Below, piece after piece: positions 1-63,178 of a stretch of DNA of 64,000 nucleotides; the first letter of the stretch is position 1, and every line of letters starts with the position of its first letter. This DNA is from Haliclona indistincta (lineage: Eukaryota > Porifera > Demospongiae > Haplosclerida > Chalinidae): positions 3,491,142-3,555,141 of the forward strand of contig OZ024785.1 of NCBI GenBank assembly GCA_964017065.1. Direction: 5' to 3'. The notes beneath the pieces were generated by a model. It worked only from the letters and a program-made list of their open reading frames with translations. It searched no databases and was not told where the DNA came from. The translations under genes and the position numbers were made by a program.

Positions 1-367
1 CTGTGCTGCTTTGTGGATCATTGTTTATTGTTAGCGCTGCTTGTGATACTGATTGTGGTCTTCACTACTATAGTGTGTGCTGCACGTGCTGTTACTATTA
101 GAAGAAATCAACACATTATAGGTATCTAATGAATAAGTATTTAATTATCGCATTAAATAATTTCTAGCTGCAGGTGTTAGTGATCATGTTCCAGTTGATG
201 ATAATCCTGCTTACATCACAATGAAGAGGATCACCTTGAACAAGAACACTGCTTATGAGACTGTTAATATGAAAGACTGTCATTATGAGACTGTCACTGT
301 AGCTACCGGTGACTATGAGACTATCAACACTAGTGCTTACGAGAATGTTAACATTACTATTATATAG
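1..367 (+). CDS. Receptor R1, 3' end only (transmembrane exon and type A tail)
   Basis: The window opens inside this gene. The exon to 121 is open from base 1 and encodes the helix LLALLVILIVVFTTIVCAA followed by the basic stop-transfer RRNQ. A phase-1 intron (122-173) leads to the tail exon 174-367, ending in TAG. The tail carries NPAY/YITM, TAYETV, HYETV, DYETI and AYENV. The downstream flank (about 400-520) resembles those of R7, R8 and R10. Oddity: bases 1-30 match what is intron in R7 and R8 (about 47160-47190 and 51280-51300) and run straight into the middle of the helix exon. The usual acceptor and the first codons (DISISVIIVG in R8) are therefore missing, which suggests a deletion between two similar TGGA(C/T)CATTGTT stretches. 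Whether a functional transcript remains is unknown. Confidence 0.7.
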
Positions 368-919
368 TTGAGAGTTCTGGCTTATTAATTTTTATATAAA
401 GATTTTGGATCATTCACTGAATTTCGTCTCCAAAAATTAAGTAACTCAACACTGATATACTAGCATTATGATTTGGTTGTTGTTTCATGATAACAGGGAG
501 CTGTTATACTGAACAACAGAAGTGACTCAATAATGGTTACACCTAATTCAGATGACACTGCTACACGATTATTCACTCCACTTCCTGTTATTAACAGATC
601 AATACCTAGTCAACCTTCTATAACAGGCATGTCTATGTGCATGCAATCATTCATGCTTGCTCGTGAGTGGGCGTGGTATCTTAATTATGTTTTAATTGTG
701 CGCTCACGTGAATTACTATCGTTCCATATCCATATATGGCACTCTAACCTCGCCCTCCTAGCCCTGTAGCCCACCCACCTGCAAGTCACCTGCCTGCCAA
801 GTAGCCGCGCCGCCTTTCGCTATCTGTTGTTGAAGTTGCGCAACGTTCCATCCACGCGTATATATGAGTCTGTTTTGGATATGATATAGCTATAAATGCT
901 GATGTGATTATTGAAGATT
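368..919. other. Intergenic spacer between R1 and R2
   Basis: The first 150 bases are the conserved 3' flank shared with the other type A genes. The short open frame around 533-769 has no recognisable domain and no signal sequence, and I do not regard it as a gene. No promoter motif could be assigned. Confidence 0.5.
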
Positions 920-3900
920 ATGGAAGTGAACATCTTAGCCGTGACCATCATTTTGTTCACCGCCAGTGCTGCTGCCTGTACGTATATTTACAGTGATGGA
1001 CTGAAGTGTCTCTTTTTTACTCATTGTTTTATTCTATAGCACTCACAGAGGGTCCAGTGTCAGTGAGTGTACTGGTTGGAGAGAATGCTCTGTTCCACTG
1101 TAATGGTAGTGGTAACGTTTTAGCATGGATTGTAGATGGACTGTATTTAACTGAAGCACCTATCAAACAACGAGGAATCTCTACTGTTTCATCATCATCA
1201 TCAGGCACTCTACAGTCCACTCTCACTGTACCAGCAACACTAGTGAACAATGGCACTACTGTACAGTGCGTGATCTATCCTGGTGAGGTGACCAGCAACA
1301 ATGCTACACTGACTGTTCTCCCTATACCTGGTGAGCTGTACAGGACTAATTTACTGATAACATAATTGCAAGAGTATATAATATAGAGAGAGTATCGAAC
1401 GCCGTATTGCTCCATACAAACACTGTCTGTAAAGTAACGTGACACGCACGTGAGAATGTGACGAAGACTGATATCGGCCCACCTAGTCGTGACGCATTTC
1501 TCGCTCGCGCGACAACTCGAGTGAACAACAAACAGTGCTTACAGCTAACTACGAGAAATGGACCCTATCTGTATGTGGAAGGCGCTGTTAAAATGTTAGT
1601 TTGATGTGTTTTCTATTCATCCTGACGGTCCTGGTCCGGCAAACTCGTCTGATAGTATACTCTTCGATGATTGGCGCAAGCCATCGCTTTTACTAGCTGG
1701 AATGTTGGCAATAACCGTTCGTCGCTTACAATCAGCTACTGTTCCTCGATAAGAGCAGCTGCAGTCGCCAGTAAAAGTGCTGTTTACTCGATCACATAGT
1801 CCTAGGAGGCGTGACCGCAATCGCGCGAATATAAACGCTGCGTCACAACACGTAAAATGTCTCACGTGCGTGTCACGTTACTTTACAGACAGTGTTTGTA
1901 TGGACCCATACGGCGTTCGATACTCTCTCTATATTATATACTCTTGATAATTGTTATCATATATTGTACAGGTATTGGACAGGTTCGTAATGTCAGGTTC
2001 ACTTCATCACTCAGTGACGTACAGTGGGATCCTCCATTGACTGCTCTGAGTGGTCTCATGTATGAAGTTACAACTATGAACACTAACACTGGTCAAATTG
2101 TTGTCAATGAAACTACTAACAACACCTTCTGTCCTCTACCTGAACTAGAGAATTGTCAGCACTATATTGTTAATGTGACAGCATTCTCATCTCAGCAACA
2201 AGGTGATAGTGTGGTTGCTGGATTGAGTCTACCAGGAAGTGAGTGTGTTGATTGAACAGTGCGAGTTGATACTGATTTTCATTTTATAGATAACTATCGA
2301 TTTAAAACTATATTGTCACAAGAACTTGTCTTCAGAGATCCTTCAATTATAGAATTCCATGTGACACTACGCGTAATAGTATGTTAGATCCAGAAATTGT
2401 AACTATTAAATTAATATTATTCTTTTTCCAGGTATCAGGTGTGCCATGTCCTGATCAGAGACTAACAGCTCAGTCGTACCCTCAATCCAACACATCTGAT
2501 ATCACTAACCATCCTGAGCTAGTGATAATGAGCAGTGGAGATATTGTATACTCCATCACTACTGGTATTGAGAGGAAGCAACACTACACAGCTACTATTA
2601 GCCTCATTGGTAATGAAACGATTGTACAGGAGTTGCCTTTAACATTCAGTGAGTTAGTCATATGTTACGATACTATTAATATTTTTGACGGTGATAATCA
2701 CAACACACAGGTACATTTGATGTTCAAGACTGTGATGTATCCAGTGACCAGCACACTAGCTCCATACTAGTGGAGTGTACATTTGCCATCAATTCAACAG
2801 CACCAGGGATTGTAGTGATACAAGATGACCAGAGCCAATATACCACCAACAAGACACTGCAGAGACTGCTGCAGGATAGTGATAAAGGATCTGTCAACAT
2901 TACTGGTCTACCAGCAGGAGAGTATAGTGTGAGAGTGTATGACAACAGTCCAGCTACTGACAGCACTAGTGCTGCATATCAGCATTCTCAGTTAATACAC
3001 ATTATGGAACTACCTAGTCCTTATTCTTCAAGCATCATTTCATCTATCATACTTCCATCAGGTATGTACAGCTACTTAACTAATGAGTTTAATCATTGTT
3101 GTTATTTCAGTAACTTCTGTAACCTATTTGACGCCTTCGAGTTCCTTATTGCTTAGCCACACTAGTGTCACTCCTAGTGTGTTGCTTGAATCTACAACAG
3201 GTAGCTTTTGTTATAGCAAGATTATACATAATTCATTTATTGTGTGTTTGTTTATTCTCAGCCCCCATTGCTGCTTTTGTTGGAGTTGCCGTGGGTGTTG
3301 CAATAGTTACTTTCATCATTGTCCTTGTGGTGGTGATGGCGGCTGTTTTCTTTATTATGATGCGTGCACACAAGAAGACAAGACTAAGTAATTTAGAAAA
3401 TTATTTTGCGACACTGCTCATTTTTGTTGTTACAGTTTCGGTTCAGACTATAAACTGGACTAAGGAAGAAGAAAATAGGTTTGTCATGTGTTCAGTTATA
3501 GTGAGCTAGCTGTCATTGTGTGTGCCTCTTTCTTTGTAGATACCAAGAACTCAACTTTAATCATAATGTAAGAGAATAATTTTTTATAAGTAATAATAGT
3601 TGAATGTGTTCTAAATAAAAGCTGGAGTGTCCATTTCCTAAGCAAATTTTTTAGGAGGGCGTCCATTCTCAAATCTAAATGGGCATTTATTATTTTACTC
3701 ATGTGATTTAAGGGAGGTGTCTATTTAAGGAGGGTTTTTATTTGAGGATTTACTGGAAAGCAACCTGGTTGCCATTATAGTTAGGCAGTAATTACTAGAG
3801 AATTTGGAGTTGTAGAATTCATGGTATTGCATCATGAATATTATTTTGTGAGGTCATGTGTACACAATTGCAACTAACAGTCAATGAATAGTCCCTACTG

Positions 3901-5096
3901 GGAATTATGATCATTGTAGGGTATAATTTTGGTTATTACTTTTTTATCAACTTTTACTGTTATGTTCAAGGGCAGGGTGGCATTTGCCCCTTTTTGTCAA
4001 CCATAGATGAACCTTAGATTAATTTTTGTCATTCATGCAATGTGTGACCACGTGGTTGATCTAGTACAAACCACATGTAAATTGTAAACACAAAAATCCT
4101 GCCAAGTCACTGCGTGATATAGGTTCCTGTCACAAGGGATGCTACTCCATATGATATTTCTGCCTCACTGACTGTAAGTCAATGTGACACTGCTGCATTA
4201 GTGAGCATACCATTCTCTGTATGGCTAGGTACAGGATGACAAATCAACCAAGCAAGGACCAGTCTATGCTGATCTCCATCACTCTACTAATCCACCAGCT
4301 CCTCCTCTACCTGTTGAACCAGTACAATATGCTACTGTCAAGAAACAAACTGACAACACTGAGACTACACAGTTTGAGGGCAAGGTCAGTATGTTGTCAT
4401 TTTGTGTCTTTATAGTGTGTTTACAATCTTATGTGCAGGGGTTGCACTATGCTCAAGTACAGCACTCTACTACTGGTCGACCAGCTGCTCCTATATCAGT
4501 CAAACCAGTACAATATGCTACTGTCAAGAACGACAAGAAGCCTGAACCAGTTCAAACACCATCTGGAGATGTGAGTTTAACTGATAAATTCAGTTTGCCT
4601 ATGTTGAAGATTTTGTTGCTATAGCGCCATCTGACTCATCACAACATGTTTATTCTCGTATGTTTGTCATTTCGTACATGGTCTATTAAGAGTATGCACA
4701 CTCTAGCATAATGTTTTGGTAATGTTGCTTTAAGTTATGGTCATCCCCTACTCATGTGTACTCATGTGTGCTACTGCTAGACATGCCCGCAGCTCTTGTG
4801 TGCAATCATGAATACCCCTAGTGAGAATAACTTTTCTATAGTGTGATCCAGACTACAAAGACGCATTGTCTCCTACGTCAGAGTCATCTGGTTTCTTCTC
4901 AAGAAGTTCTACTGACAATTCAGAAATTGCCGAAAAATCAGGTTCTCTTCCATCACTATCTGACCAGACCCATACAGATGGTGAATACACAATACTGTAC
5001 AGGGTTTTACACAGGACTTTTTGCCAGGGGGAACACAATAGCAGAGGGTCTGTGGGGTGCAGTCCCCCAGACGCTGACGGGTATATACACTATTAA
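920..5096 (+). CDS. Receptor R2: intact Ig/FN3-like type-I receptor with multi-ITIM tail (type B)
   Basis: I predict 13 exons: 920-977, 1040-1330, 1972-2238, 2290-2372, 2432-2648, 2711-3061, 3111-3200, 3262-3387, 3436-3478, 3540-3567, 4235-4384, 4439-4570 and 4842-5096. All junctions are GT-AG and in phase, giving about 696 residues with no stop. Order: signal peptide (1-19), V-set-like Ig (about 20-116; FHC, core Trp in AWIVDG, VQC), FN3-like 1 (117-205), FN3-like 2 (206-305), glycosylated beta module (306-422), Ser/Thr stalk (423-452), and a helix in 453-494 followed by HKKTR. The tail has YQEL, VYADL, VQYATV, LHYAQV, VQYATV and EYTIL plus a Pro-rich stretch. VxYxxV and LxYxxV match the ITIM consensus that recruits SH2-domain phosphatases in vertebrates, so an inhibitory role is plausible but inferred. 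A 578-bp MITE sits in intron 2. Exon boundaries come from paralogue comparison. Confidence 0.75.
1369..1946. mobile_element. MITE in R2 intron 2, long TIRs, 7-bp TSD
   Basis: Inverted arms of about 95 bp start CAAGAGTATATAATATAGAG and end with the reverse complement. The element is flanked by the direct repeat ATAATTG at 1362-1368 and 1947-1953. The same intron is only about 57 bp in R3 and R8, which marks the insertion cleanly. No transposase is present. Confidence 0.85.
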
Positions 5097-6088
5097 ACAA
5101 CTTTCATTGCCATTTTATTGATAGTTAGATACACAATTTATGAATGAGTTATAGCCACAATAATTAGGGTGTAATCCAGCCGGTGTAATCATTATAATTT
5201 TGGTAAACTTCCAAGGGGAAATTGGTTCCAGGGGGAATCCCAGGGCACCCCTATGTATGAAACCCTTATATCATCGAATAGTACCTGCACTAAAATTTCA
5301 TGTTAAAATAGTACCACCATAGACTCCATATAGTACCAGTGGTGTATTTGGTTGAGTAGTGAAGTTTTTGAGATAAAAAACCAGTTATAGCCTTTTTACT
5401 CTTTTTCCCATCAGTACCACACCTGTGAATTATTTGAGGATATACAGTAGTTTGTTCAATTCATTTGTAACAGATGGAATCATTGTGTAGTGCATTCATA
5501 AAGGATTTTTCTAAACATAATTACAACATAGTTACTAATGGTATTCCCCTGATTAACTGCTTTGTCATGATGTTCAGAGCTTGTTGTAACAATTGCTTCA
5601 TCACATCTTTAGATTGCAGTGGTCTACAGTCAGTGGAGAGTGTCCCTTCTAATCATGGTGAGCTATGATGCTGCACTGATATTATCATAGTTATCATGTT
5701 ATCTCTCATGTACAGTAAACCAGTCCGATTGTTTCGTGTCTTCCAATGGTCTCGTATCATGTAATGTACCTGATCATGAAAACAGTGACAAATTCAAACT
5801 GCAACACTTTCATTATCATTCAGAAAACCTTTAATTACTTGAGATACTATCGACATAATAATTATATCTGTGTTAAATTGATTGCTTGGTATGATATTCT
5901 TACATAGCTGTACATCATTATTTTTATAATCTGTAAGTCATTTAGTACATGTACCACTGTGCTTCAATTTATTAGAAATGCTAACTGATTTATCATAATA
6001 GTCTAGTAACCTAATGCATGTGGGATTATGTACATAAGTATAGTGAGCTGATAGTGCTTTGAATTCTAGAAAGACCTGCTATGGCTTA

Positions 6089-6243
6089 CAGTGGAACCTC
6101 TCAAAGGCGGACACCCAACAAATTTGTCCACAGAGGGTGTCCTCTGGTCAGGGGGTTATTATACATTATGTGGGTTATATTTGGGATTCAGTAAGTGTCC
6201 ATTATAGAGGGATGAGGGGTCTCCTCTAAGAGGGGTTCCACTG
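6089..6243. mobile_element. Small TA-flanked MITE (Tc1/mariner-like)
   Basis: It begins CAGTGGAACCTCT and ends GGGGTTCCACTG, with TA on both sides (6087-6088, 6244-6245). The 155-bp length, CAGT terminus and TA duplication fit a non-autonomous Tc1/mariner derivative. Confidence 0.7.
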
Positions 6244-6292
6244 TATGTCTTTGTAACAGTGTGTACATATGAGTCGGCAGCCATTGTCGTAC

Positions 6293-6660
6293 CCCCCAGG
6301 TACAAAAGATATATATGTTACATACGTATATAACATATATTTACTCACAGAAATTGCATATATGTGATATATGTTTTATATATATGTAATTTGTTGGTAT
6401 TTGGCCCAACACAAACCTATGTATACATATATGTACATGTATGTGCATATATTCCGCACATATGCTGCATATGTTGTACACATACTACTGGTTCTAGATT
6501 ACACATGTGTTCCATATATGTACATTTATGTGATACATATTCTTACATATTCTACAACATAGGTATTACACTGTTCCGAAATTGCTTTTGCATATATGTA
6601 ACAGCTATGATAATTATATGTAATTTGTGGTCTTTGAAAAAAAAGATAAATGTGGTACAA
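6293..6660. repeat. TATATG/ACATAT low-complexity tract
   Basis: Imperfect alternation of TATATG, ACATAT and TACATG words. Open frames across it are Tyr/Cys/Ile-rich by composition only and are not treated as genes. Confidence 0.5.
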
Positions 6661-7381
6661 TTATGAGTCTGTCATGAAAAATTATGCTAAATTGTGAATA
6701 GTACAAAATAAATGTCACGAGCTGTATAGAATGTTCATCAAGTCTTTACCAGAGTATATAGCTGCATGTATAGAAGATGGACAAAATAATGTGTAAGCAG
6801 TGTCATGCAGGGTCACTGTACCTCAGTCATCTTCTTCTCCAAAAGTCCACAGATTTGTATTTCAGTTCTCTCTCTCTCCACTTCAGTAACTATAATGTTC
6901 CTGTACGTTGACAGAGTGTTGAATATCATAGTTACATAGTAAATAGTCAATATACCTTCAGAACAGACATCCATCAGCAGCTAGATTACTTCTATTATAC
7001 TGACAATATTTTCACAAAAATAGCTACAGAAGGTAAACACAATGATCATATCACAAGCTAACTCACAAAGCAACACGTGCCTTACTCTAGCTGTCATTCT
7101 GCCTGTTACTTCAGTTTTGTGTGGGCACACAGAAAGGTGAGCTATAAACTAGCAATGCATCTCGCTATTGAACATGTGAAAGTTAATAGCACTTGACATA
7201 TGGAGTAATTTGTTCACCTTAATGACGATCCGGATCTATAGACTTCTTAAAAGACAAAAAAAAAACATTTGTTTTTTTCGAGCTTGCCTATAATAATGTC
7301 ATTAATTTTACAAGTAAAGTAAATAAGTTTTAATGAAAAACTGAAAAGTGTAGGGATGACGCATGTAAAAGTAAAAGTCTC

Positions 7382-8190
7382 AAGTAGTGCCTCATGCCCA
7401 GTAACTGATACAGGAAATCAACCCACACCAGCTATGAACAATTCTATTCAGACAGCTTCCTCAAATGTAGCTCCTTAATAGACAGTAACCACAGAGGACA
7501 CAAGTATGCTCATACTGTCACCTTTAGCTGAATCATTAACAATCTATAGCAAATGTTGTCACGGATAGTGTTCCTAGTGCAGTGCCTCCTCCAGTAACCA
7601 CTAAATAGGAACAACCTACTCCAGTAGTAGATTAACCAATTCACAAACTACACTAGATAAATCTACAGTTCACAATCAAAATCACCATTGCCATCACCAT
7701 CACCATCACAATCACCTCCAACATCTGAGCTATCCTACACAAAAAACCACTTACACTACTTGACTAGCTGACATAAATTATTCTATGTGCCTTCTCCTCA
7801 ACTGTCCTCTCCATCTTGTCCCAAGCCAGTACATCCTGTTCCAGAATCATCAACTACAGCTAACTCATTGGATCAACTAATAGTAAGCAGTGTGTGTGCA
7901 CTGTTTGTGAGTATGTTTTTGTGCGTGAGTGCATGGGTGTGTCACTGTGTGAGTGTAGAAATGATTAATTTTATCTTTTTAACACCATCATCTGATGCAG
8001 CTGAAAAGGTAAGGCTTTGCATCAATAACAACACTACTTTGTACATGTGATGTTACAGTCTTGATTTATTGTGCTGCTGTATAATAGTAGTATTTCTCTT
8101 CTACACGTTCAGGATGAAGAGTCTTATCTTACTACTATGGGAAAGGAAGTGTCTAAGAAATCCAAGTCTCAACCATACTTTGTCAAATAG
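7382..8190 (+). pseudogene. Decayed type C cytoplasmic-tail exons
   Basis: Remnants of a Pro/Ser-rich tail cassette, best seen intact at 48.1-48.8 kb. A PSPQLSSP exon lies at about 7787-7890, where the paralogue's acceptor AG reads TG. A short SSDAAEK exon lies near 7985-8008. The terminal exon 8113-8190 encodes DEESYLTTMGKEVSKK and ends PYFVK-stop. The upstream exons (about 7400-7700) carry several stops. There is no ectodomain or membrane helix, so these are orphaned exons either of R2 or of a lost receptor. The next signal peptide begins only 220 bases downstream. Confidence 0.6.
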
Positions 8191-8409: not shown

Positions 8410-11400
8410 ATGTATACGATGTTTCTCCGCTTCTTGTTCATGAGTATAACTACTAGCCATAGTTCAGCTGCTGCTGGTAATTATTATTATAGTCATGGAG
8501 CAAGACAAGGTCTGTAATTTCATTCTCTAGCACTCACAGATGGTCCAGTGTCAGTGAGTGCACTGGTTGGAGAGAATGCTCTGTTCCACTGTAATGGTAG
8601 TGGAGTGGTCATGCAGTGGATTGCAGATGGATTGTATGTAACAGGAGCAGATCCTGTCATTGTGGATCGAAGAATCGTTGCTGTTTCATTAATATCATTA
8701 GGCACTGTACAGTCCACTCTCACTGTACCAGCAACACTAGTGAACAATGGCACTACTGTACAGTGTGTGCTCTATCCTGATGAGGTGACCAGCAACACTG
8801 CTACCCTGACTGTTCTCCCTATACCTGGTGAGCTGTACAGGACTAATGTACTGATAACATATCATACTATCCTATATTGTACAGGTATTGGACAGGTTCG
8901 TAATGTCAGGTTCACTTCATCACTCAGTGACGTACAATGGGATCCTCCATTGACTGCACCGAATGGTCTCATGTATAAGGTCACTACGATGAACATGAAC
9001 ACTGGTCAAATTGTTGTCAATGAAACAACTAACAACACTTTCTGTCCTCTACTAGTGAGGCAGCAGAGCAGAACAATCGTGCATTTTGTGATAAAAGCAT
9101 CAAATTTGGTACAGTGGTAGATAATAGCACTATAATGAAATACAGATATTGAGCCACTGCAGAATTTTCGGTTTAAGTATAAAATTCACTAAATAATATC
9201 TGCAATAATAATTATGCGCATAATCAAATAAAAACATTTTACTACATTGGATAATATAAAAAGTTGATTCGAATGATAAAAATAAATACAAAAAATGATA
9301 TACTAGCTAATCATGAGACTTAATAATAGCAGTACAAGCCCCAAAACAAAATATTCTATAATGAGATTCATAGATTTTTAATTTTGAAAGCATGTTACCT
9401 TTACATGCAAGCAATGTGTGCTTGCAAGTTGATTAACTTTGTTGCAATTACATCACTTTACACTGCTTTGTGTATGATAGAAGCAGCTTGAAGCTTTTGG
9501 TTCATGTTTGCATTCTGTTTTTATCACTGAGAAACATGTTCAAGAAAGTAAATAATTTTTTTAGTCTACCCATTTTTTTCCTATAACCTGTTGATAATGC
9601 ATTTGATGATGTGCTTGACTACCTCTTTGCACATTAATTTTATTTTAATGACCAAGAAGGGAGTTGTCAAAATCTCTTGCAACAACTTTAAATCTACCAA
9701 TACGTTAGCACAAATTGCAGTCGCAGTTCATTGCAGTTGCAATTGTGGCCACAATTCATTTCACAATTCATAGCCTTGGTGTGTTATGGAGGGTTAACAT
9801 ACAATCAATGCTTCTAAAAAGCAAATTAATTTGATAATGAAACTTGAGTTCAGTTTAGATGGTAGCTCATCTGGTCACCCTTGGGCCAGTAAAGTTGGAT
9901 GGTTTGATTTAGGCAAACTTAAGCAGGTGGCTGTATTACAAGATGTGAAACTCATTGCAGTTGAGACTATAGCATGTGGCCGTCTTAGAGAGGTGACCAT
10001 TGACAGTTGCAAGTAGCTCAGCCAGGTTTCAAGGTTCTGTCAAATTGTCAATTTTGTACTGAACATTAATACCTGCTTTAAAATCAAGCTACACTCCATG
10101 CACTGCATCTGCTAGTATAATAATACAGTTAAAATTATTAGAGCTACATTGATATTTTGCATGTCATTGAGCTAAGTGACATAAAACTTTGATTTGAATA
10201 TGTAATATTAAGGACTGCTAGTACTGCTAAATGTAACTGAAGGCGGTATTGTCAGAGAGGGATTTGACAATTGTATTACACAAAGTGCTTGATGTATGAT
10301 GCCACTATCTGTATCTTGCCATGGCTTCCAATTAAAATGACTATATCTGTTGTTGGCTCTTACTTTAGCTGTATGCTAACACGTTCAAATTGTCATGTAA
10401 AAAAACTTACTCAAAATTGTCCATTTATTATAAAATTCAGACTGTCTCTACTGCAGAATAATTCTAAACTCTTTGAGTATCAAGGGTAAGAAGATCACTG
10501 CTTTATATAAGCGAATTAGCTATACCAGAATTAATGATAACCAAATGAAATGAATTATTCATGAGACATTAAGTAATTAACTTTTCTTTTCTTATTTCTG
10601 TTGAGGTAGTAGTGCACAATTACAAACATCATCAATGCATTTAGTGATTCCAATTCTTCCATAAATGTGAAGTTTTGCATTTTGGATTGTGGAAAATTTT
10701 TAAAAATTATGACGGACATAATTAACAATTAATTAACATTTAAAAGACCAAGGGTTAAAATTATGATGTGGCTCAATATCCAAATCTTTTTGTAACACCT
10801 TTAGTAACATGTATAGCAAGTTTGGTGCTTTTATCACAAAATGCATAATACTTGTGGAATTTTAAACTGTGCTGCCTCACTATACCTCCTCTTCAGTTGT
10901 GTCAGAATTATATTGTTAATGTGACAGCATTCTCATCTCAGCAACAAGGTGATAGTGTGGTTACTGATCTGAGACTACCAGGAAGTGAGTGTGTTGGTGG
11001 TTGGTTGAACAGTGTGAATTGATACTGATTTTTATAGATAACTATCGATTCAAAACTATATTGTCACAAGAGCTTGTCTTCAGAGAACCTTCTATTGTAG
11101 AATTCCTTGTCACACTATGTGTAATAGTATGTTAGATCCAGCATTTGTAACTTAATATTATTCTTTTCCAGGTATCAGGTGTGCCATGTCCTGATCAGAG
11201 ACTAACAGCTCAGACGTACCCTCAATCCAACACATCTGACATCACTAACCATCCTGAGCTAGTGATAATGAGCAGTGGAGATATTGTATACTCCATCACT
11301 ACTGGTATTGAGAGGAAGCAACACTACACAGCTACTATCAGCCTCGTTAGTACTGAAGGGACTGTACAAGAGTTGAATATAACATTTAGTGAGTTTTACA

Positions 11401-17247: not shown

Positions 17248-17375
17248 ATGTACACAGTGTTTCTCTGCTTCTTGTTGGTGAGTACAACTACTAGCCATAG
17301 TTCAGCTGCTGGTAATTATTATAGTAATGGAGCGAGATAAGGTCTTGTACTGAATTTCTTTCTCTAGCACTCACA
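17248..17375 (+). pseudogene. Orphan signal-peptide exon and stump of an Ig exon
   Basis: 17248-17311 encodes MYTVFLCFLLVS... ending in a phase-1 donor, as in R8. The next exon begins at 17368 with CACTCACA and then leaves homology after 8 bases. It is a receptor start truncated by inserted sequence. The block from the type C terminal exon to this point is a duplicate of 8041-8480 and 48600-49060. Confidence 0.65.
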
Positions 17376-17515
17376 CTTGATGACTCGACGTACTATGCAC
17401 AGTTGATTTTAACACACCCATTGAAATGTAGTCTTGTACTCATGAAGATATTGATATGAGCTAATTTTTTGAGAAAGACGAGTTCATTGTGAACGCAACG
17501 AGACATTTCCCATAT

Positions 17516-17700
17516 AGGGAGGCACGGTAGTGCCTCCCTATGTAGGGTTGAACGAGAAAACAAGATGGCGGCTACATACAATGTATTAGCGTTCAAACGC
17601 TGATATTTTGCCTGGTCATGAATTGTATACGTCAAAAGACACTTAAATCTGCTCTAGGCGTGGTTACCTTACTTTTACAAACGGCGCGCCATATTCTCAC
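17516..17700. mobile_element. Hairpin-ended repeat family, copy 1
   Basis: It begins with the perfect hairpin AGGGAGGCAC-GGTA-GTGCCTCCCT, followed by AACAAGATGGCGGCTAC and TTAGCGTTCAAACGC. The same head recurs at 21074, and its continuation at 24142. The right end is not resolved. Confidence 0.5.
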
Positions 17701-17992
17701 GGCAGGTTTGCTAATCTCATGGTTTCAGCATGCACAATGGCGAACGTGCCTGACAGCTCGTGTGGTCTGGGATCAAATATTTATTGGGAAATAATGAGAT
17801 TCACAATCTTTAATGATCGTGAATGCAATTAATATTAATTAACTCCAGGTGCCCATTGACGACGAGCTACTGACAGGACTGATTTTGTTGAGGAAGGTGC
17901 CGTTCGTTTGAAAAGGCAGACGAAACTGAAAAAATCTCAAGAAGCACTAATACATGTAGTTATATTCTGGAGTCCCTACATAACATGCAGGC

Positions 17993-33506: not shown

Positions 33507-33521
33507 TTTTTGGCGACGAGG

Positions 33522-48110: not shown

Positions 48111-48119
48111 ATACAAGAC

Positions 48120-52184: not shown

Positions 52185-52689
52185 ATGAAATCAACAGTGA
52201 TGATTCTCTATGTATGGATGATGTGTACAAATACTTATGGTAGTTATGACAAGAGCTAGGCATGTATCTCTGATTGTACACAACTATGGCTGACTATGAC
52301 CATAACACAGAGTATGCTTATAATTATAGCATGTGCCAATATAACTATCTTCAATGTTATTGTTGTTTCTGTGTACAGATAGTTTTCCTTCTATCACCAT
52401 ATCTGCTATTGATACTGGGCTTAGTCTAATACTGCTACTTTTGATACTAACTGCGATGATTGCTATAGTGTGTGTAGCAATGAACAAAAACAAGAACAGA
52501 GGTATTAGAATGATTCGTATCCAAAGTCAGACATTTTTTCCACTAGGTGTTATTGATCATGTTCCAGTTGATGATAATCCTGCTTACATCACAATGAAGA
52601 GGATCACCTTGAACAAGAACACTGCTTATGAGACTGTTAATATAAATGAGGCTATCAATACAGGTGCAGTTTATGAGACTGTATTATAA
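52185..52689 (+). CDS. R9: 106-aa mini-receptor (signal peptide, helix, type A tail, no ectodomain)
   Basis: Three exons, 52185-52239, 52379-52501 and 52547-52689, join in phase 1 to 107 codons including the stop. The signal peptide MKSTVMILYVWMMCTNT resembles that of R5. It is followed by only about ten outside residues (DSFPSITISA), then the helix TGLSLILLLLILTAMIAIVC preceded by an Asp (SAID), then NKNKNRG and a tail with NPAYITM, TAYETV and VYETVL. A relic of an R4-like stalk exon (GACTATGACCATAACACAG at about 52293) lies unspliced in intron 1. The gene therefore arose by deletion of all ectodomain exons while keeping compatible phases. In outline it resembles DAP12/CD3zeta-type adaptors, which is only an analogy. 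It could also be an unexpressed relic. Confidence 0.6.
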
Positions 52690-53388: not shown

Positions 53389-55478
53389 ATGTACACGTTC
53401 ACGGTGGTTCTCAGCTTCTTGATCGCGAGTACAGCTACTAGTTCAGCTGCCAGTAATAGAACAAGTTATGAGTGAGATAAGGTTCTGTGATTTCTATTCT
53501 CTAGCACTCACAGAGGGTCCAGTGTCAGTGAGTGCACTGGTTGGAGAGAATGCTCTGTTCCACTGTAATGGTAGTGGTATCACTATAATATGGCGAGTGG
53601 ATAAATCATTAGCAACTGACTCTATCATTGTGGAGCGAGGAATCACTCAACACACAGTAACATCATCAGGCACAATACAGTCCACTCTCACTGTACCAGC
53701 AACACTAGTGAACAATGGCACTACTGTAGAATGTGGAGTAGTATCACTCAATGGGTTTGCTATCAGCAACAATGCTACACTGACTGTTCTCCCTATACCT
53801 GGTGAGCTTAGCAGGACAGTTCGACTAACTTGTTATCAAACTGTTTCTACAGGTATTGGACAGGTTCGTAATGTCAGGTTCACTTCATCACTCAGTGACG
53901 TACTGTGGGATCCTCCATTAGCTGCACCCAGTGGTCTCATGTATGAGGTCACTACGATGAACATGAACACTGGTCAAATTATTGTCAATAAAACTACCAA
54001 TAACACCTTCTGTCCACTACCTCCTCTCCAGTTTTGTCAGAACTATATTGTTAATGTGACAGCATTCTCATCTCAGCAACAAGGTGATAGTGTGGTTACT
54101 GACCTGAGACCAGAAGGAAGTGAGTGTGTTGGTTGAACAGTGCGAGTTGACACTTATTTTCAGATAACTATCGATTCGGAACTATATTGTCACAAGAGCT
54201 TGTCTTCAGCGAAACTTCAATAATTGTAGAATTCCTTGTCACACTACGTCTAATAGTATGTTAGATCCAGCAGTTGTAACTATAAAATTAATACTATACT
54301 TTTCAGATATCAGGTGTGCCATGTCCTGATCAGAGACTAACAGCTCAGACGTACCCTCAATCTAACACATCTGATATCACTAACCATCCTGAGCTAGTGA
54401 TAATGAGCAGTGGAGATATTGTATACTCTATCACTACTGGTATTGAGAGGAAGCAACACTACACAGCTACTATCAGCCTCGTTGGTAATGAAGGGATTGT
54501 GCAAGAGTTGTCTTTAACATTCAGTGAGTTAGTCTTGCATTACGATACTATTATTAATTCTTGATGATGATATTCATGACAAGGTACGTTTGATGTTCAA
54601 GACTGTAATGTATCCAGTGACCAGCACACTAGGTCCATGACCAGAGTCAATATACCATCAACAAGACACTACAGAGACTGCTGCAGGATAGTGATAAAGG
54701 ATCTGTCAACATTACTTGTCTACCAGCAGGAGAGTATGGTGTGAGAGTGTATGACAACAGTCCAGCTACTGACAGTCTGACAGCACTAGTGCTGCATATC
54801 AGCATTCTCAGTTAATACCCATTATGGGACTACCTAGTCCTTGTCCTTCAAGCATTATGTCATCTATCATACTCCCATCAGGTAAGTCATGTATAGTGCT
54901 GTACACCTACAAATACAATCAACTTTTTTAGCACATGCAAGTTCCTTCTTGTTTAGCAACAGTGTCACTCCTAATGTGGTGCTTGAGTCAGCAACAGGTA
55001 AATGATCAACAGAGAGTTTGCTCATGCATACTACACACCATTGTCTCTCTCTCTATATCACATACTGGTGTCACATACATTAATTTTGTACTTTAGCATC
55101 AAGATGATTGATAGTGCTGTATACATGCAGATATTTCCATCTCTGTCATCATTGTTGGACCATTGTTAGCGCTGCTTGTGATACTGATTGTGGTCTTCAC
55201 TACTATAGTGTGTGTTGCATGTGCTGTTACTATTAGAAGAAATCAACGGATTATAGGTATCTAATGAATATTTTGTAACTATTAATTTATTCTTTTATCA
55301 AAAATATTTAGCTACAGGTGTTATTGATCATGTTCCAGTTGATGATAATCCTGCTTACATCACAATGAAGAGGATCACCTTGAACAAGAACACTGCTTAT
55401 GAGACTGTTACTGTAGCTACTGGTGATTATGAGACTGTCAACACTAGTGATTATGAGAATGTTAACATTACTAGTTGA
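53389..55478 (+). pseudogene. Receptor R10: degenerate Ig/FN3-like receptor
   Basis: Exons: signal 53389-53452, Ig 53505-53801 (FHC, IWRVDK, VEC), FN3-1 53853-54119, FN3-2 54164-54250 and 54307-54523, beta module 54584-54881, stalk about 54928-54998, helix 55131-55256, tail 55318-55478. Lesions: the donor after the first FN3-2 exon reads CGTCTAATAG where the paralogues have CG(T/C)GTAATAG, and the beta module has lost about 90 bases and gained a duplicated GTCTGACAGC. The tail is open and has NPAYITM, TAYETV, DYETV and DYENV, with YETV-x6-YETV spacing. Signal, Ig and FN3-1 are intact, so a short secreted form cannot be excluded. Confidence 0.7.
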
Positions 55479-56614
55479 GTATCAGTTAGTAAAGTTGAGT
55501 TTTTTTTAAATGAAGCCATTCACTAAACTAAATTTTCCCTGCAAAATTCCTTATCTGATAAAGTACCATTGTGAATTGGTTGTTGTCTCATAATAGCTGG
55601 ATGACATGGAGCTGTTATACTGAACAACAGAGCAAGAAGATACTCGATATGACAACCAAAATTATACACAGATTTTAGCTCTTATTTATTTCTTATGCAC
55701 AAAATCCACATTCTATAAATAATTCACTTCAATAATGTACTGTACTGTTATATGTCAGTATCAGTAATTTTCTTCTTGATCTTGCTTGCTCGTTCCATTC
55801 TAGTTCCCGCCTATTCTAATCAACGCTCACTATCCAGCCTTATAATAAATATTTTAAAAGGCGTGGTTATGCGCTTGTTGCGCATTGCGCGGGAAAATTT
55901 TAGAACCCTAAAGCTGATGCAAGATCTAGAATCATGGGAGTCCTAGCTATAAAATTCAAGTGGCATAAGCCCAGGAACCACAGGTTCATACTGAATCGTC
56001 GTTTTTGGACTGGTCTGATGATAGACAATGTTTGGCAGTGCCAGCAGTTTCCGCTGTCGTCTCCCGATCTCTCTAGGACTGGCTGTTCTAATGGCGGTGT
56101 TTGCTACAGACGACCTAGTAGACGCCGAACAGCCAGGACCATGCAGTGAGTTGGCAGCACCTTGTACACACATCATGTGTGCCTTCAGGCGCTAACTGAA
56201 CCTCTGATCTGTGATTTGCTGTTTTATACACAAACACTACCATTGTCTAGAGCCGTGTCGTGTGTTGTTCCATCATGTCACTCGATCATGTCAGATCATC
56301 AGATATGCTTGCTCTACCCTAGCTGACTGGCTTATACTGGGCAAACCCAAGTTACAAAAACTGACTATTGTTCGGCTGTGAGGTCTGTAGTGTGTAGGTT
56401 AGTATTGTTAGATGAGCAGAGAGTTAGCATGTGTTGAAACAAAGGGAACATAATTAAATAATTAGATCATCTAACATGTGATGTCTGTATTTACTAACTA
56501 TATAATGAGTTCATCTTTGTACTTTGCTCATCTCAGCAATTACTGTCTGTACTTCAACCTGCATGATGACCTAGACACTGAGTAACTGATGTATCTTTAT
56601 CACTTCATTTGCAG

Positions 56615-59600
56615 TTCTTGGGCATGTACCTGATCAGACAGTGTGGCTGAATGGTACTCTCACCATAATGGTCAACGCCACCAAGGCCTGCCATACCATT
56701 GTTCCGTTCCGTGACGGTGATTGGGTGAATTATGTTCCAAGACCATCCAATATTACTGACCTGCACATAATTGATGTTTTATTAATTGATGAGCGGTTCA
56801 ACAACGCTACTATGACACTGAGAGCAACAAACTCTTCAGGAACTGTACTTAACTCAACAGAGTTCAAAGTATACACACTAGGTTAGTGATAAGTGCTACT
56901 TCAGCATGCTATACATGTACACTAACTCCTTCCTAACTTATCCATGTGGTCAGCATGTGGTGGTACATATACACTGACCTCTCTTGTGTCAAGTGGTGGT
57001 GGAGGCTAAGGGCTACAGTGTATTCATAACGAGTGTGGTAATGTCAAGTGCCTCTTAGATTACATCATTGTGCTTATTCTGACATTCCAAGAGCATATTC
57101 TGACCTCAATACTTGTCTGTGTGAGTGTGTGTATGACACAATTCTGTGTCTGGACAGTCTATCAGTTGATGTTCATCAACTACTCTACTATTGTTAAGTA
57201 TGTTTAGATGATAGGAATGGTTTTAAATGGTAGTACAAGTTCAATATTATGCCACGCGGTAGACGTGGCATATTTAGGGTTGGGCGGAAACAAGATGGCT
57301 GCTACACGTAGGCTAAACGCAATAATTCACGTATATCTTGGCTGTTGACGACATCAGGGGTATTTTAACTACCTAGGGGCTATCCTAAGAGGTAAGCGCT
57401 TACAATGAGTCCACTAATAAAGACTATAAGGCCAGTTGCTATGGGTATGAAGATGGCGTCTCGCCTGGAGGCACTATTACGGCACTGCCATATCTTCGCC
57501 GTACGGGCGTTTCAAGCTAATCTAACGTTCTAAAGCTCTTTGCACGATTTGTGTGATTATAAAGAGACCTTCAGAAGCAAAAGAAACCAGGTCTAAGGTG
57601 GTAAACCAGAGTTCACGTGGTCACCCGTTTGTTCATCTTCTTTCTTCTTCTTCTTCTTATTCTTCTTCTTCTTCTTCAGAGAGCCTAGCGCCGTGGCTAG
57701 TGAGCTATTCAAGACAAAAACTACACAGAAACTACACTAGTCGTTGTGAGCAGTGCACCTGATATCTATTTAAGCCTAAAACACTAGCAGAAGCGAGTAT
57801 TTTCAGGAAAATAGCGAATTTTGGTCCATAATCAGACTCCATTCCATCATTCTGTTTGAACTCCGTTACTAGGTTACGCCTACTCGCGCACGCTCGTGTA
57901 TGAAATTATTCTAATACAAGCGCACCTTAGTACAAATTGCTTGGAACGCGAGTGCTGCTGCCACTAGCAGTGTTCACAGCAGACAACGAGCAAATCTTCA
58001 CTGTTACACTGGATTTGTCTGTTCAGGCTTGTAAGAATGTTAGCTTAAGCTTAGCTAATGTTGCATGGTACGTGTTGCATGCAGTGCAGAGTCGATCCAG
58101 TGCAGTCAGTGGAATAGTTCTCTTTACACTATATTAGCATAAGTAGCAACTAAGTCATTAATAAAAAAAGAAAAGAAACAAGTAATAAAAACATTTTAAC
58201 CAAAATGCAAGAGATTTAGGGTTGGTACATTTATCGAAAAAGTATGGAAACAAGATTTTGAAATGAAAAGCGGTATTGTAACAATAGCAGTGTAATGCTA
58301 CCTCCCTAAATTAACTGCTTTCGATAGTTGTGGTTAATTTAATAGGGAGGTAGCATTACACTGCTATTGTTACAATACCGCTTTTCATTTCAAAATCTTG
58401 TTTCCATACTTTTTCGATAAATGTACCAACCCTAAATCTCTTGCATTTTGGTTAAAATGTTTTTATTACTTTACTATTGAGTATTACATGTTTCCATCTT
58501 CTTAGTTCCTTGTTATTAGTGAAGTAGCTGTTGTTGTTGTATAAGTGTTTTATGGTCATGTGACCAGGAATGGTATAACTGTCTGGGAATGACTTTGATA
58601 TTAAACTGGTGTCCCTGGTATTAGATTCCAGATGATAAATTCTAGTACCTTACAAGTTGCATGGATTAGTGGTTTGTGTGTTCCCTGTTTTAAAGGTCAC
58701 TTATATGCAATTATGGATTCTATTGATCCAATGATCAGTAGGCTAACAAATCATGTGACAGTCACATGATGGTAAGCTTGTGTGGTAACCAGAGGAAACC
58801 ATTAAAATGACATGTTTTTTTTCCTAAACTATAATTATCCTGGATTGTATGATAATATACTACATGCAGCCTAGCCTAGCCGCTAACCCTCTATACCACT
58901 ACACACACTCAGTCTCTATAGTCCGCCATTTCATACGAGCTCTCGTGGGTATCGTATGTGCATTAGAGCATACCTGAATGGAGACGGCTCAGGCAAAACT
59001 ACGCATGTGTCCATCTTCTTTGTTCTGATGAGATCAGTACATGATAATCTTCTTCCATGGCCTTTCCAACAAGCTGTAACCTTTCAGCTTATCAGCCAGC
59101 GGGATCATTTGAAGAGTGTCAGTGAAACCATTCTTCCTGGACCTACAAAGCCCATCATTACAGCAACCACAGTCTGAGATGAACATAGCTAGTGGTTTCC
59201 AAAGATTTGTTCCCCTATCATAAATTATTTGAAAAATGAAGACTTTATTGATGTAAATGCGATCTACATAAAGTGCAAGGTAGATCTCAAAGGTTTAACT
59301 ACTGAGTAAAGGAAAATAGTAATGTACTTTCCATAGAAGTTGTACAATTAGTTGTGTGTAAAATCAACTCTAAGGCTGTTCCTTTTTGTGTGGTAACCAG
59401 AGGAAACCATTAAAATGACATGTTGTCTTTCCTAAACTATAACTATCCTAGATTGTACTGCATGTGACCTAGCCTGTTCTCTTGTGTTTTGTACATTATT
59501 AACCCTCGGCGCATGCGCGAGGGTTACGGTACTTGCTCTGTCATTCGTTCGATCATTCGTTCATTCTGTCTGTCCAATGAGCTGCAGAGACCATCGCTCA

Positions 59601-60866
59601 CTTCTGAAACTCGTTAAACGTATGAACAGGCTTAGTATGACAATGGCTTGCAATCTGACTCGTGGATTTTGCTAAAGTGCTTTCGTTCTCGAGTTATGTA
59701 TGGCTGGCTCACCTTGACGGCCGTCTTTCACCTCTCTGACGACAAAAGCGCCCATAGTTGACTACCTAGGTACTTGTAGATTCCATCTAAACTGTAGGAC
59801 AGCTCTGGGGGTGAGTAGACATCTTAAGAAAAAGCCTATCAAAGCGAAGAGCAATGGCTACCTACTCAGTGTTCACGGTCACGCCCACTTGACACACCTT
59901 GTCTCGGTTGTGGTCAGCACTTTGCTGTCTTCTGGTTAGCAGTGCAGTTTCAATAGCAAACAGGTTAGCTTTAGCTGCAAAGCTCTTTCTGCAAACCATA
60001 ACTAAGGAGCTAACTCTACAATGTTTGCAACGGTGCTCAAACGCCGAGGGTTCGTGAAATCCGTTCATTATCTTGTTGTCTACTGAGTGTTTCCTTAATC
60101 ATGTGACCATGAATATCATTGATGAATACCATTGTGTTGATTCTTTATTGTAACACAAACTTTCACATAGTCTCTCCTGTGAGGATTACTATAGATCAAA
60201 GCATCCTACTCCATTAGGGTCTGTGATATTAACCACCCCACATAGACTAACATAGCGCTGACTAGGTGCATTCCAGTGCCATGATAAGGATTTGACCTAC
60301 ATGTTGATGATCAATACATTAGTTATTCATAACACCTAGGCTAGCTGCTGTACTGGGGTAATTTTACTGTGGTAAGGTCATCATCTGCTCACTCATTGAC
60401 TGCTTGCTGCATATAGTGAGAGGGTTCCCTACATAGCTCATGTGACCAGTGAAGAATCACTAGCACTATGTGACTACAACGATATCACAACGATATCGTG
60501 TAAGTAGTACATTGGGTCATGTTAGTGTCTGTAGCTTGTAGAGGTAGTCACTGCTCTTGAGATTATGTTTCTCTATCATCACGATTATCATACCGAATAT
60601 TCCATTGGACTACTCATATCATGTCATTATTTCAGTGATCCACAGGATATGCTGATGCTTGGGTTAATTTTAGATGTCCACTATTTTTATGTTTATCTCA
60701 AATAGTTCAATGTGTACTATTTTTAGCATTATTTTTATAATGTAACAAAGCTACAATGTAGATGCTAAGTGCCTTACCATTAGTGTGTGTACATGGACAT
60801 CTCCCATTGTTGCTCTGTCTGTAACAACTCAAACATACTTGCACAGATGAAGTGTTGACTAAATTT

Positions 60867-60916
<50 letters not shown>

Positions 60917-63178
60917 ATAATGTCAGTGCTGTCACTAACTTGAGCTACTCTAGTAACTGTACCTACACCATTGTGTGGTGGCTCCCTCCCTACTCACAAG
61001 GACTGAAGGTCACAGACTACTACTGTGAGCTCAGACTGAATGGCACGATAGTTGAGAGCGGTGTGACTGTCAATTCCTATGTGGTGTTCAACCTCACTAC
61101 TGTACCAGCTAATGAACGCAGATACAGTGTGTCGGTATGGGCACGTGCCCCTCCTGGGAATGGGACTGTGACCAATGCTTCAGTAGTAGCTGCTTTAGGT
61201 AAGCCCTAGCGCTAGCTACAGTAGACCCTCACTGATCTGAACCAGTAGCTACAGTAGACTCTCACTAATCTGAACAGCCTTGTACCAGTAGCTACAGTAG
61301 ACCCTCACTAATCTGAACAGCCTTGTACCAGTAACTACAGTAGACCCTCACTAATCTGAACAGCCTTGTACCAGTAACTACAGTAGACCCTCACTAATCT
61401 GAACAGCCTTGTAGTACCAGTAGCTACAGTAGACCCTCACAGCCTAGCTTGTACCAGTAGCTACAGTAGACCCTCACAGCCTAGCTTGTACTAATAGCTT
61501 GAGTAGCTCTTCCCTAGTTCTTAGGTTTAGCTACAAGCTTGTGTTTTGTTTCATGTCATCATTGTCGTTCTCTCTAGCTCCTAATGTTAGCTATGACAGC
61601 GTTGAAGTCATTATTGCATCTCAGAAACAGAAAGCCATCCTTGTCTTTGTTGGAGTGGTGAGCTAGCTACACACACTTCACTATTCTATAATCTAAGCTC
61701 AATCTGTCTTCAGGTCGATCAGTCTTGTCCTGCCTCACACCCAACTGGTGCCAATATCAGTTTTTCATGTCTGCTAGATAAACACTCTGTACGACCAGTT
61801 GTCAATGGGACTACATTAGAGATCTACAGTGATGCTATTGATACTGGTTATACTAACTGCAGTGTGACTGTGACCAGTGACAATCTCTCTGGCGAGAACA
61901 CCAGTCAATCATTCATGTTCAGTAAGCAGTGTGTGTGTGTGTGCGTGTGCGTGTGTGTGTGTACGTGTGTGTCACCGACGGTGTCTCATTGTACCACTAA
62001 TGGTACAGGTGGGACTACAGGGTGCCCACACCGGCAGTGGGAGGCATGGTTGGTACCTCCTGCGAGTTCCTTGCCCGGGCTCCAGGAGTGCTCATAGCAC
62101 CGGCACATCGTACCTGCTTAGTGCACAGGTGCCCTGGCTTGTCCAGGAACGCGTGACCTGTAATAGGCAGTGAGAGGCTTTTACGTGTGTGTGTGCATGC
62201 GTGCGTGTACAAAAATTGATCACTACAAATCTACATGCAGGTTCCACTGACGTGCAACAATTAGTTGCCAGACCTTCAAACATCACAGGTGCGATAGACC
62301 TATGGATTGTGCTAGCCAGGAACTCCAGCCAACAACCAAAAGAGATCGTCGTGAACATATTTGACTCTCATGGGATGCTAGTGAATAGCACAACACCAGA
62401 CAGATCACTTCAGGAGAGGGTATTTACAGCAACAACAAAAATTCTTCCGATAGGCTGGTACACCGTCAGTGTACTATCCTGTTACAACAAGTCACTTACT
62501 ATAAATGAAACCGTCAATATCACTCGCTCGAATTATTCTACTCCTTCTCTCACTCCCTTTCCGTCACCATCACCGTCACCATCCTCCAGTCCTGCTCCTT
62601 CAACCACACCTGTCCCATCTTCCACAGGTGTACCCACCCCAACTAACAGTGAGTGAAAATAACTGATATGCTACTGATTTTTTTATGTAATAATTTTTTT
62701 TTCTCTTTTAGGTAATCTTGGAATAATTATTTGTGTTTCTGTTGGTTGTAAGTTAGATGTTATATTTTTACAACCTTTGATCTTCTGTTTCTGTTAGTTT
62801 TAGTTGTGATACTACTAGTGCTCATGGTAATCATCATAATTGTGATTGTGAGAATTCGTGTTTATTTGAAAAATCGTCGAAAAGGATCCTATGATGTTTC
62901 GTCTCATAGCAGATCAACAGGACAAAGATCTAGTCATGTGAGCCCTAATTTTGTCAGACACCAGTCAGTTACTGCAGCTGTATTTTGCCTCCCTCCATTA
63001 GAAGAGCTCTAGTATACCAGTTCAAGCTGAGGCTGGTAATGATAATGAGAATAGCGCGATGGTGTCACCAGGAGCAAGTTTGAACAACTCACACTATGCA
63101 TCCTACGGAGGATTCACGTCTTCATCGCCAGCTGAGCAATATGAAGCATCAACTCCTGACATGCAGCAACAGCTTTTG
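56615..63178 (+). CDS. R11: divergent FN3-like transmembrane receptor, ends not resolved
   Basis: Phase-compatible exons: 56615-56881 (VWLNGTLTIMVNATKACHTI), 60917-61198 (FN3-like, VSAVTNLSYSSNCTYTIVWW), 61578-61657, 61714-61921 (VDQSCPASHPTGANISFSCL), 62241-62648 (glycosylated module ending in a Ser/Pro/Thr stalk), 62712-62747, 62798-62937 (helix LVVILLVLMVIIIIVIV then RIRVYLKNRRK) and 63002-63178 (SHYASYGG, EQYEAS). All are open. The architecture parallels the R2-R10 family but the sequence is only distantly related. The first coding exon is unclear; MSVSVIFFLILLARSILVP at 55752 looks like a signal peptide but has no convincing donor. The 3' end is not found before transposon sequence begins at 63.2 kb. 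The 4-kb intron 56882-60916 contains repeats and a TRAF-like fragment. Confidence 0.6.
57248..57760. mobile_element. Hairpin-ended repeat family, copy 3
   Basis: Starts with hairpin TATGCCACG-CGGTAGA-CGTGGCATA, then TTAGGGTTGGGCGG and AACAAGATGGCTGCTAC, and ends after a CTT-rich tract and GAGAGCCTAGCGCC. This is the same order of modules as 21074-21142 plus 24142-24370. The right end is approximate. Confidence 0.5.
58180..58471. repeat. Near-perfect long palindrome in R11 intron
   Basis: Arms 58180-58314 and 58333-58471 (about 135 bp each) are inverse copies with only a 3-base length difference near the centre, around an 18-base loop. The outer word is AAGTAATAAAAACATTTTAA. Confidence 0.88.
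58781..58877. repeat. Direct repeat left of the TRAF-like fragment
   Basis: TGTGGTAACCAGAGGAAACC through GTTT-CCTAAACTATAA to CCTAGCC. It recurs at about 59390-59475, enclosing the TRAF-like fragment. Confidence 0.75.
58920..59309 (+). pseudogene. TRAF-type MATH domain fragment (intronless)
   Basis: The open part reads GYRMCIRAYLNGDGSGKTTH, FFVLMRSVHDNLLPWPFQQ and VTFQLISQ, diagnostic of the C-terminal TRAF/MATH domain of TRAF adaptors. It stops at 59176. The expected continuation (EMNIASGFQRFVPLS ... AIYIKCKVDLKGL) follows in another frame to about 59309 with further breaks. RING, zinc-finger and coiled-coil parts are absent. The uninterrupted copy and missing introns suggest a processed or transposon-carried fragment. 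No function expected. Confidence 0.78.
59390..59475. repeat. Direct repeat right of the TRAF-like fragment
   Basis: Second copy of the 58781-58877 repeat, same orientation. Confidence 0.75.
59490..60060. mobile_element. Putative element with a terminal hairpin
   Basis: Left edge TTAACCCTCG-GCGCATGCG-CGAGGGTT forms a short perfect hairpin. CGCCGAGGGTT recurs near 60045. It resembles the hairpin-ended family in plan but not in sequence. No protein is supported. Limits tentative. Confidence 0.35.
60869..60914. repeat. (CT)n microsatellite at an R11 splice acceptor
   Basis: About 46 bases of CT repeat form the polypyrimidine tract directly before the acceptor of the FN3-like exon at 60917. Confidence 0.9.
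61216..61490. repeat. Tandem repeat, about 42-bp unit
   Basis: Six to seven imperfect units of GCTACAGTAGACCCTCACTA plus ATCTGAACAGCCTTGTACCA within an R11 intron; later units are shortened. Confidence 0.85.
61928..61972. repeat. (GT)n microsatellite
   Basis: GTGTGTGTGTGCGTGTGC-type run in an R11 intron. Confidence 0.85.

Follow-up and report, generated by a model that had tools for sequence, protein, structure and literature searches.

The molecular basis on which sponges recognize self, foreign tissue, and symbionts is, to our knowledge, unsettled, and a tandem array of immunoreceptor-like genes in a demosponge genome raises the question of whether such genes might take part in that recognition. 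The window analyzed here is the whole 64,000-nucleotide stretch at positions 3,491,142 to 3,555,141 of contig C3, in a genome of 144 Mb and 46 contigs. The initial annotation had placed an array of at least nine paralogues and one distant relative at its positions 1..63178 and had proposed a recognition locus.

Extent and gene content of the receptor cluster

Self-comparison of the window identified seven genes with an Ig exon, at positions 1048, 8539, 12697, 18101, 45517, 49124, and 53513, and each of these exons precedes members of one common exon series, with the order signal peptide, Ig, F1 (FN3), F2 module, beta module (B), stalk, transmembrane segment (TM), and tyrosine tail, joined by phase-1 introns. 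The family content of the window amounts to seven ectodomain genes, a pair of tail fragments, and a single distant relative; every one of these parts is on the forward strand. The tandem arrangement of paralogues on one strand, their common exon order and intron phase, the Cys-Trp-Cys pattern of the Ig exon, the TM helices, and the YxxPhi tails were all confirmed. The array is real and far larger than had been claimed; the nine paralogues resolve into the seven Ig-bearing genes, the tail end of R0, and an orphan TM-plus-tail unit.

Nor is the array confined to the window. The Ig exon of R8 had 150 scored matches in the genome among 267 candidates, so that at least 150 copies is a lower bound, and by hand count 113 of the 150 fall in about 1.13 Mb of contig C3 (2.85 to 3.98 Mb), the remaining 37 lying mainly in smaller clusters on C6, C5, C7, and C4. 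A short-tail query found 121 matches among 131 scored, and a long-tail exon query found 62 among 80 scored, of which, by hand count, 59 fall inside the C3 cluster and 3 belong to C7. The window is a slice of one very large, tandemly duplicated type I receptor family, with a cluster of about 1.13 Mb. Within it, three mobile elements, recognized by eye and not receptors, lie in about 25 to 38 kb of the span. A death-domain reading of the ORFs at 41610 to 42717 is not supported: Pfam gave no match or weak ones, and the best PDB match had an E value of 0.23.

The window opens on the short tyrosine tail of R0 (173..367), intact by mechanical splicing; the remaining exons of this gene are upstream, its signal peptide about 2.36 kb before the window begins. 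R1 follows with a signal-peptide exon (920..977), read by eye as MEVNILAVTIILFTASAAA with a phase-1 donor, an Ig exon (1040..1330) and an F1 exon (1972..2238) found by self-comparison and mechanical splicing, and F2, B, and stalk exons (2439 to 2648, 2711 to 3061, and 3111 to 3200) found by mechanical splicing, the five exons from Ig to stalk being clean. Its TM exon (3262..3387) is of a distinct type and leads into long ITIM-like cytoplasmic tail exons (3523..8187), with YQEL at about 3540, YADL and YATV at 4235 to 4384, and YAQV and YATV at 4439 to 4570; further exons to about 8187 are probable, and the joins beyond 4570 are provisional.

Four of the seven ectodomain genes are damaged: R2 (8410..12328), whose FN3 exon is split by about 1.8 kb between 9051 and 10882; R3 (12569..15150), with an in-frame stop near 13957 in its B exon; R7 (48996..51819), whose B exon carries an insertion of about 510 bp (about 50254 to 50767) containing a stop; and R8 (53389..55478), with a broken reading frame in the B exon. 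R4 (17248..20322) has a TM candidate at 20194 to 20322 and no recognizable tail. R6 (45377..47696), with eight exons, all of phase 1, is the only fully intact gene, and its spliced product is a 541-amino-acid type I membrane protein with a signal peptide (assigned by hand), ectodomain, TM helix, and tail. Between R7 and R8 stand orphan TM and tail exons with no ectodomain (52379..52689). The distant relative R9 (56590..63000) has Ig-like, FN3-like, and beta-like ORFs by eye, a Pro/Ser stalk, and a TM at 62794; two of its ORFs scanned against Pfam gave no match beyond chance level, and its tail showed no ITIM-like motif on reading.

When the window was extended by 40 kb upstream to 104 kb with 18 Ig-bearing positions, mechanical splicing yielded, in addition to R6, four complete genes and a fifth that has the core exons, so that six genes splice intact, a count obtained with a single F2 model, under which a divergent F2 exon may cause a gene to be scored as broken in error. 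All five mechanically intact genes start upstream of the window, and one, R0, ends inside it.

Ectodomain folds and variability

Within the ectodomain, C20, W29, and C76 were invariant in all 32 Ig exons compared. In the predicted structure, the Ig part has an Ig-like strand order, with residues 21 to 60 at a pLDDT of 79 to 82, and profile matches were to antibody chains and DSCAM, weak by sequence and drawn from a PDB rich in antibodies; in the best PDB match, no single stretch was significant alone (stretch E value, 3.7). The Pfam models ig and Ig_3 each matched 18 of the 32 Ig exons at an E value of ≤0.05 and 2 of 10 joined-exon members at ≤0.1, and the one member with listed scores, at 16.7 bits, fell below the curated cut-off of 21.8, as did the matches in a separate Pfam scan. 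The Ig identity of the first module is thereby supported, weakly by sequence. An FN3 fold for F1 is likewise supported by the model, which in fold comparison matched domains of LepR, CD45, titin, and fibronectin as well as cytokine receptors, a set so varied that the F1 fold points to no one function. These matches are dominated by model residues 115 to 205, with the Ig half hardly covered. Whole-model Foldseek TM-scores were approximately 0.3, which we attribute to an in-frame intron stretch between Ig and F1 that leaves the domain arrangement undefined. Structure prediction, which had been suggested as a check, thus returned the Ig-like strand order and the FN3 fold of F1; of the annotated plan of a V-like Ig, two FN3 domains, and a beta module, predicted structure supports the Ig and the first FN3, the Ig also having its profile matches. 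The F2/B model had a mean pLDDT of 34 and was built on P0001, which includes intron-derived residues.

The receptor family has relatives solely among unnamed proteins, in one search 3 from ENA and in another at least 82 (80 from ENA and 2 the window's own), each among 7994 candidates scored; one of them, P0001, matches a C3 locus at 100% identity. No homologue was found in named sponge proteomes or in any other named protein when the 7994 most word-sharing candidates from 5.8 billion proteins were scored, a search that distant homologues could escape. The titles and abstract starts among the literature matches listed described no sponge family of this architecture, with subscription papers mostly outside reach.

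Diversity was mapped in 35 C3 copies free of stops and frame problems, from 44 Ig exons. It peaks in the Ig exon just before the core Trp, from this Trp to RGI, in the D/E stretch that comes next, and past the second Cys, and other stretches are almost invariant. With Cys and Trp as anchors for the CDR1- and CDR3-equivalent columns, and the CDR2-equivalent columns set by hand from an HMMER alignment to an antibody light chain that is itself weak, mean entropy in 32 Ig exons was 1.35 bits in the 25 CDR-equivalent columns versus 0.48 in the other 71, a value reached by none of the 95 circular shifts of the CDR mask. The mask takes in 17 of the 26 high-entropy columns; of the rest, four lie between CDR1 and CDR2 and five belong to the D/E region. 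To judge from these alignments, Ig variation is concentrated at places like antibody CDR1 to CDR3 on a near-invariant framework, which is a new finding for this family.

Synonymous diversity is also low in the Ig framework, so an excess of replacement change does not by itself account for the pattern. Pooled pN/pS was below 1 in all seven exon classes (Ig, 0.76; F1, 0.54; F2, 0.60; B, 0.67; tail, 0.36; TM, 0.90; signal peptide, 0.37). Sliding windows that covered Ig, F1, F2, and B whole, and the tail as far as columns 26 to 45, gave pN>pS by bootstrap at Ig columns 51 to 65 and tail columns 26 to 45 only, and pN<pS in 14 of 18 F1 windows and 13 of 14 F2 windows. Since Ig columns 51 to 65 are the sole place in the Ig exon with pN>pS, positive selection on the loops is not established.

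Pairwise distances were correlated between Ig and F1 (r, 0.52), Ig and F2 (0.49), and most closely F1 and F2 (0.94), weakly between F2 and B (0.47; 63 of 2000 permutations), and not between Ig and B (−0.02); between Ig and tail, at 0.20, a correlation was not detectable (239 of 2000 permutations). By this pattern, the histories of the N- and C-terminal parts are partly separate, as exon exchange or homogenization could bring about. Linkage within the Ig exon showed no decay with distance, which leaves fine-scale, cassette-like gene conversion inside it unsupported. When 83 family proteins (81 from ENA and 2 the window's own) were compared with stretches that make up the smaller part of the genome, 15 could be judged, of which 5 were identical and 10 matched at 97 to 99.9%. 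P0150 (best, 84%, among 150 scored of 402 candidates) and P0124 (best, 78%, among 150 scored of 466 candidates), both of uncertain species or haplotype origin, had no close genome match among those scored.

Cytoplasmic tails and SH2 partners

In 26 short tail exons, all 106 tyrosines stand in YxxPhi motifs, three to seven per tail, and the tails carry a ten-residue repeat, of the type YETVTVATGD, whose copy number varies. The YxxPhi count was reached by composition shuffles in 39 of 100,000 trials for R6 and in 19 of 100,000 for the two R1 exons. The ITIM consensus is (S/I/V/L)xYxx(I/V/L); the pattern counted here, [ILVST]xYxx[ILV], also allows T at position −2 and was reached in 4335 of 100,000 shuffles for R6 and 23 of 100,000 for R1. 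The YxxPhi motifs of the tails are beyond chance, as are the ITIM-type sites of the long tails, and, because shuffles reach the stricter pattern so often for R6, the ITIM character of the family rests on the long tails. The R1 long tail reads YADL, VQYATV, LHYAQV, and VQYATV, and three of the four tyrosines in the two exons counted are in ITIM sites (VQYATV twice and LHYAQV).

The first long-tail exons of R1 are conserved in two other loci of the cluster, L056 and L057, and in L056 a family B exon stands before the TM and long tail. Related ectodomains thus bear two tail types, as in paired-receptor families. The two types, short YxxPhi tails versus long ITIM-consensus tails, are a new finding here. 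No charged residue was seen at the center of any TM segment inspected, these being the segments of the window and nearby; the orphan TM has an Asp near its outer edge.

A search of the genome for SH2 domains gave 90 matches among the 150 scored. Paired SH2 domains occur in each of two neighboring single ORFs, which are 577 and 564 amino acids long; over residues 1 to 516, the first matches PTPN11 (SHP-2) at an E value of 1.2e-191, and the second (P0010) is 75% identical to it. A third, multi-exon SHP-type locus on C2 has two SH2 exons and, by eye, a piece of a PTP domain, and a locus on C8, recognized from its SH2 exons alone, has two whose best PDB matches are ZAP-70 and Syk. By homology, the genome encodes two phosphatases of SHP-1/2 type, portions of another, and an SH2 pair of Syk/ZAP-70 type, which is a further new observation. 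Among the best 120 of 2584, the closest named relative of the SHP protein was that of the demosponge Amphimedon queenslandica (66% identity), followed by Dysidea, Ephydatia, and Oscarella at 60% and arthropods and others at 48 to 60%; unnamed ENA proteins matched at 100% and at 82 to 85%. A demosponge other than A. queenslandica is the most likely host. The description of the locus as immunoreceptor-like genes in a sponge-like genome holds well on this evidence. A silicatein-type motif had no match in the genome, a result that is uninformative.

Possible function and known receptor systems

We consider it probable that the locus encodes a germline-diversified family of phosphotyrosine recognition receptors for nonself cells, microbial, allogeneic, or both. 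The V-like Ig domain at the tip would bind the ligand, and the variable CDR1-, CDR2-, and CDR3-equivalent segments would likely give each copy a different target, with the FN3 and beta modules as a more conserved spacer. Binding would lead to phosphorylation of the YxxPhi or ITIM-like tyrosines of the tail, presumably by Src-type kinases; the long ITIM-like tails could then dock SHP-type phosphatases via SH2 domains, and the short YITM/YETV/YENV tails could dock Syk-, PI3K-, or Grb2-type SH2 proteins, an assignment that follows SH2 motif preferences. Expression, ligand binding, phosphorylation, and the biological role of the receptors are what we infer here, and the recognition locus of the initial annotation is a proposal that the variability map strengthens. 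A bolder version is an antibody-like germline repertoire in which well over 100 V-like Ig receptors, varying in the framework/CDR manner, would exchange ITIM-like and YITM/YETV tails and signal through SHP and Syk; it is tentative, and we lean against it. If it held, V-type recognition and tyrosine-motif signaling would exist together in sponges, either from the base of the animals or invented independently. If the recognition-receptor reading is right, sponges have hypervariable Ig tips joined to ITIM/SHP-type signaling, and this bears on whether the combination is ancestral or convergent. The locus is a concrete candidate for sponge recognition in which the likely ligand-binding, diversity, and signaling parts have been identified, and the family also amounts to a naturally occurring library of V-like binders that share one framework.

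An allorecognition locus proper, in which the receptors would bind allelic forms of themselves or each other and decide fusion or rejection, is an unlikely alternative. It shares its general plan with Hydractinia Alr (PMC11999971), sponge graft responses are replicable and have been attributed to a polymorphic genetic system (PMC5450542), and the absence of any match above 84% for P0150 among those scored is as expected if individuals differ, a related species being another possible source. The variation seen here, however, is that between more than 100 paralogues, and the words "immunoglobulin" and "fibronectin" are both absent from the main text of the paper on the A. queenslandica graft transcriptome (PMC5450542). 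That the genes encode cell-adhesion or tissue-organizing molecules, expanded for cell-type identity instead of immunity, seems improbable: sponge IgSF proteins have so far been discussed as adhesion molecules (PMC11999971), and the varied matches of the F1 model indicate no one function, but loop-focused variability on a fixed framework and ITIM-consensus long tails are unexpected in plain adhesion proteins.

We regard as very improbable a recombination-prone array, grown by tandem duplication under relaxed constraint, in which pseudogenes predominate and the variability reflects decay. Such a history would suit the damage to R2, R3, R7, and R8, the tailless R4, the invading mobile elements, and the Ig pN/pS of 0.76, but frameworks, cysteines, and tail motifs are kept while the loops vary, most F1 and F2 windows have pN<pS, and six genes are intact among the 18 Ig-bearing positions.

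The novel immune-type receptors (NITRs) of teleosts are type I receptors encoded in multigene clusters; they have one or two Ig domains, including an N-terminal V domain, and most have cytoplasmic ITIMs; their expansions are species specific, with 44 genes in three clusters in medaka, activating forms have a charged TM residue, and as of 2008 that account records none identified outside bony fish (PMC2442602). The sponge family resembles NITRs in its clustered type I receptors, V-like N-terminal Ig, and cytoplasmic ITIM-type sites, and it differs in adding FN3 as well as F2, B, and stalk exons, in being much larger, and in having two types of tyrosine tail. Hydractinia Alr comprises 41 IgSF genes of an allorecognition complex, and V-set and I-set domains occur in the family (PMC11999971). 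It too is an IgSF receptor cluster in a nonbilaterian, whereas the sponge receptors have one Ig, one FN3, and two other modules (F2 and B). The tails of Alr proteins carry ITAM and ITIM motifs. In mammalian paired receptors (KIR, LILR, and SIRP), related ectodomains stand on alternative tails, in tandem clusters and with SHP-type partners. The sponge locus shares the alternative tails and tandem cluster, and the genome the SHP-type genes; unlike in KIR, LILR, and SIRP, both tail types are tyrosine rich, the domain plan is different, and no activating form with a charged TM was seen among the TMs read. Sponge SRCR and NLR genes are large, lineage-specific immune-type expansions (PMC10855680, PMC12909245), from which the present family differs in being IgSF with phosphotyrosine tails. 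The closest analogues are the fish NITRs and Hydractinia Alr, to which we liken the family in its way of working.

Tail repeats and the duplication unit of the array

The cytoplasmic-tail exons of the receptors (for example, that at C3:3451964) contain a 30-bp coding repeat whose copy number differs from gene to gene, and because of this variation the number of tyrosine sites per tail ranges from 3 to 7. Exons from the 3' end of long-tailed receptors, the type with ITIM-consensus sites, recur in fragmentary form at window positions 7796 to 8187, 16981 to 17055, 44990 to 45055, and 48384 to 48773, and are also present in the 40 kb upstream of the window (L049 to L052). Several of these fragments are located ~190 to 300 bp upstream of the signal-peptide exon of the next receptor, and the recurring fragments may mark the duplication unit of the array.

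Mobile elements and other open reading frames

A Ty3/gypsy-like LTR retrotransposon was recognized by eye at window positions 33314 to 37717. Judging from its sequence, this element is a recent insertion, since its terminal repeats are ~99% identical to each other; it contains two long open reading frames (ORFs) in one frame, with a stop codon between them. Also identified by eye inside the array were a non-LTR element bearing reverse transcriptase and a Tc1/mariner-like transposase ORF (25826 to 28736 and 29519 to 30499). A long insertion with an imperfect inverted repeat (1375 to 1935), MITE-like when judged by eye, is present in the intron separating the Ig and FN3 exons of the long-tailed receptor gene R1. 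For the ORFs at 41610 to 42717, also located within the array, no family was recognized in Pfam or PDB searches.

FN3 exons, Ig exons, and SHP-type phosphatases outside the window

Dense clusters of strong FN3 exons (150 scored of 2225 candidates) were found at C1:5.94-6.34 Mb, C10:6.10-6.49 Mb, and C5:0.92-1.03 and 5.1-5.2 Mb, all far from the receptor array, and are apparently expansions separate from it. The Ig-exon places C1:16376386 and C3:2872255, on different contigs, have equal scores, and this pair is either a recent interchromosomal duplication or an assembly artefact. Two neighboring, apparently intronless genes for SHP-type tandem-SH2 phosphatases are located at L058 (C9:7649000-7655000), and parts of a third, multi-exon copy were seen on C2; SHP itself therefore looks expanded in Haliclona indistincta.
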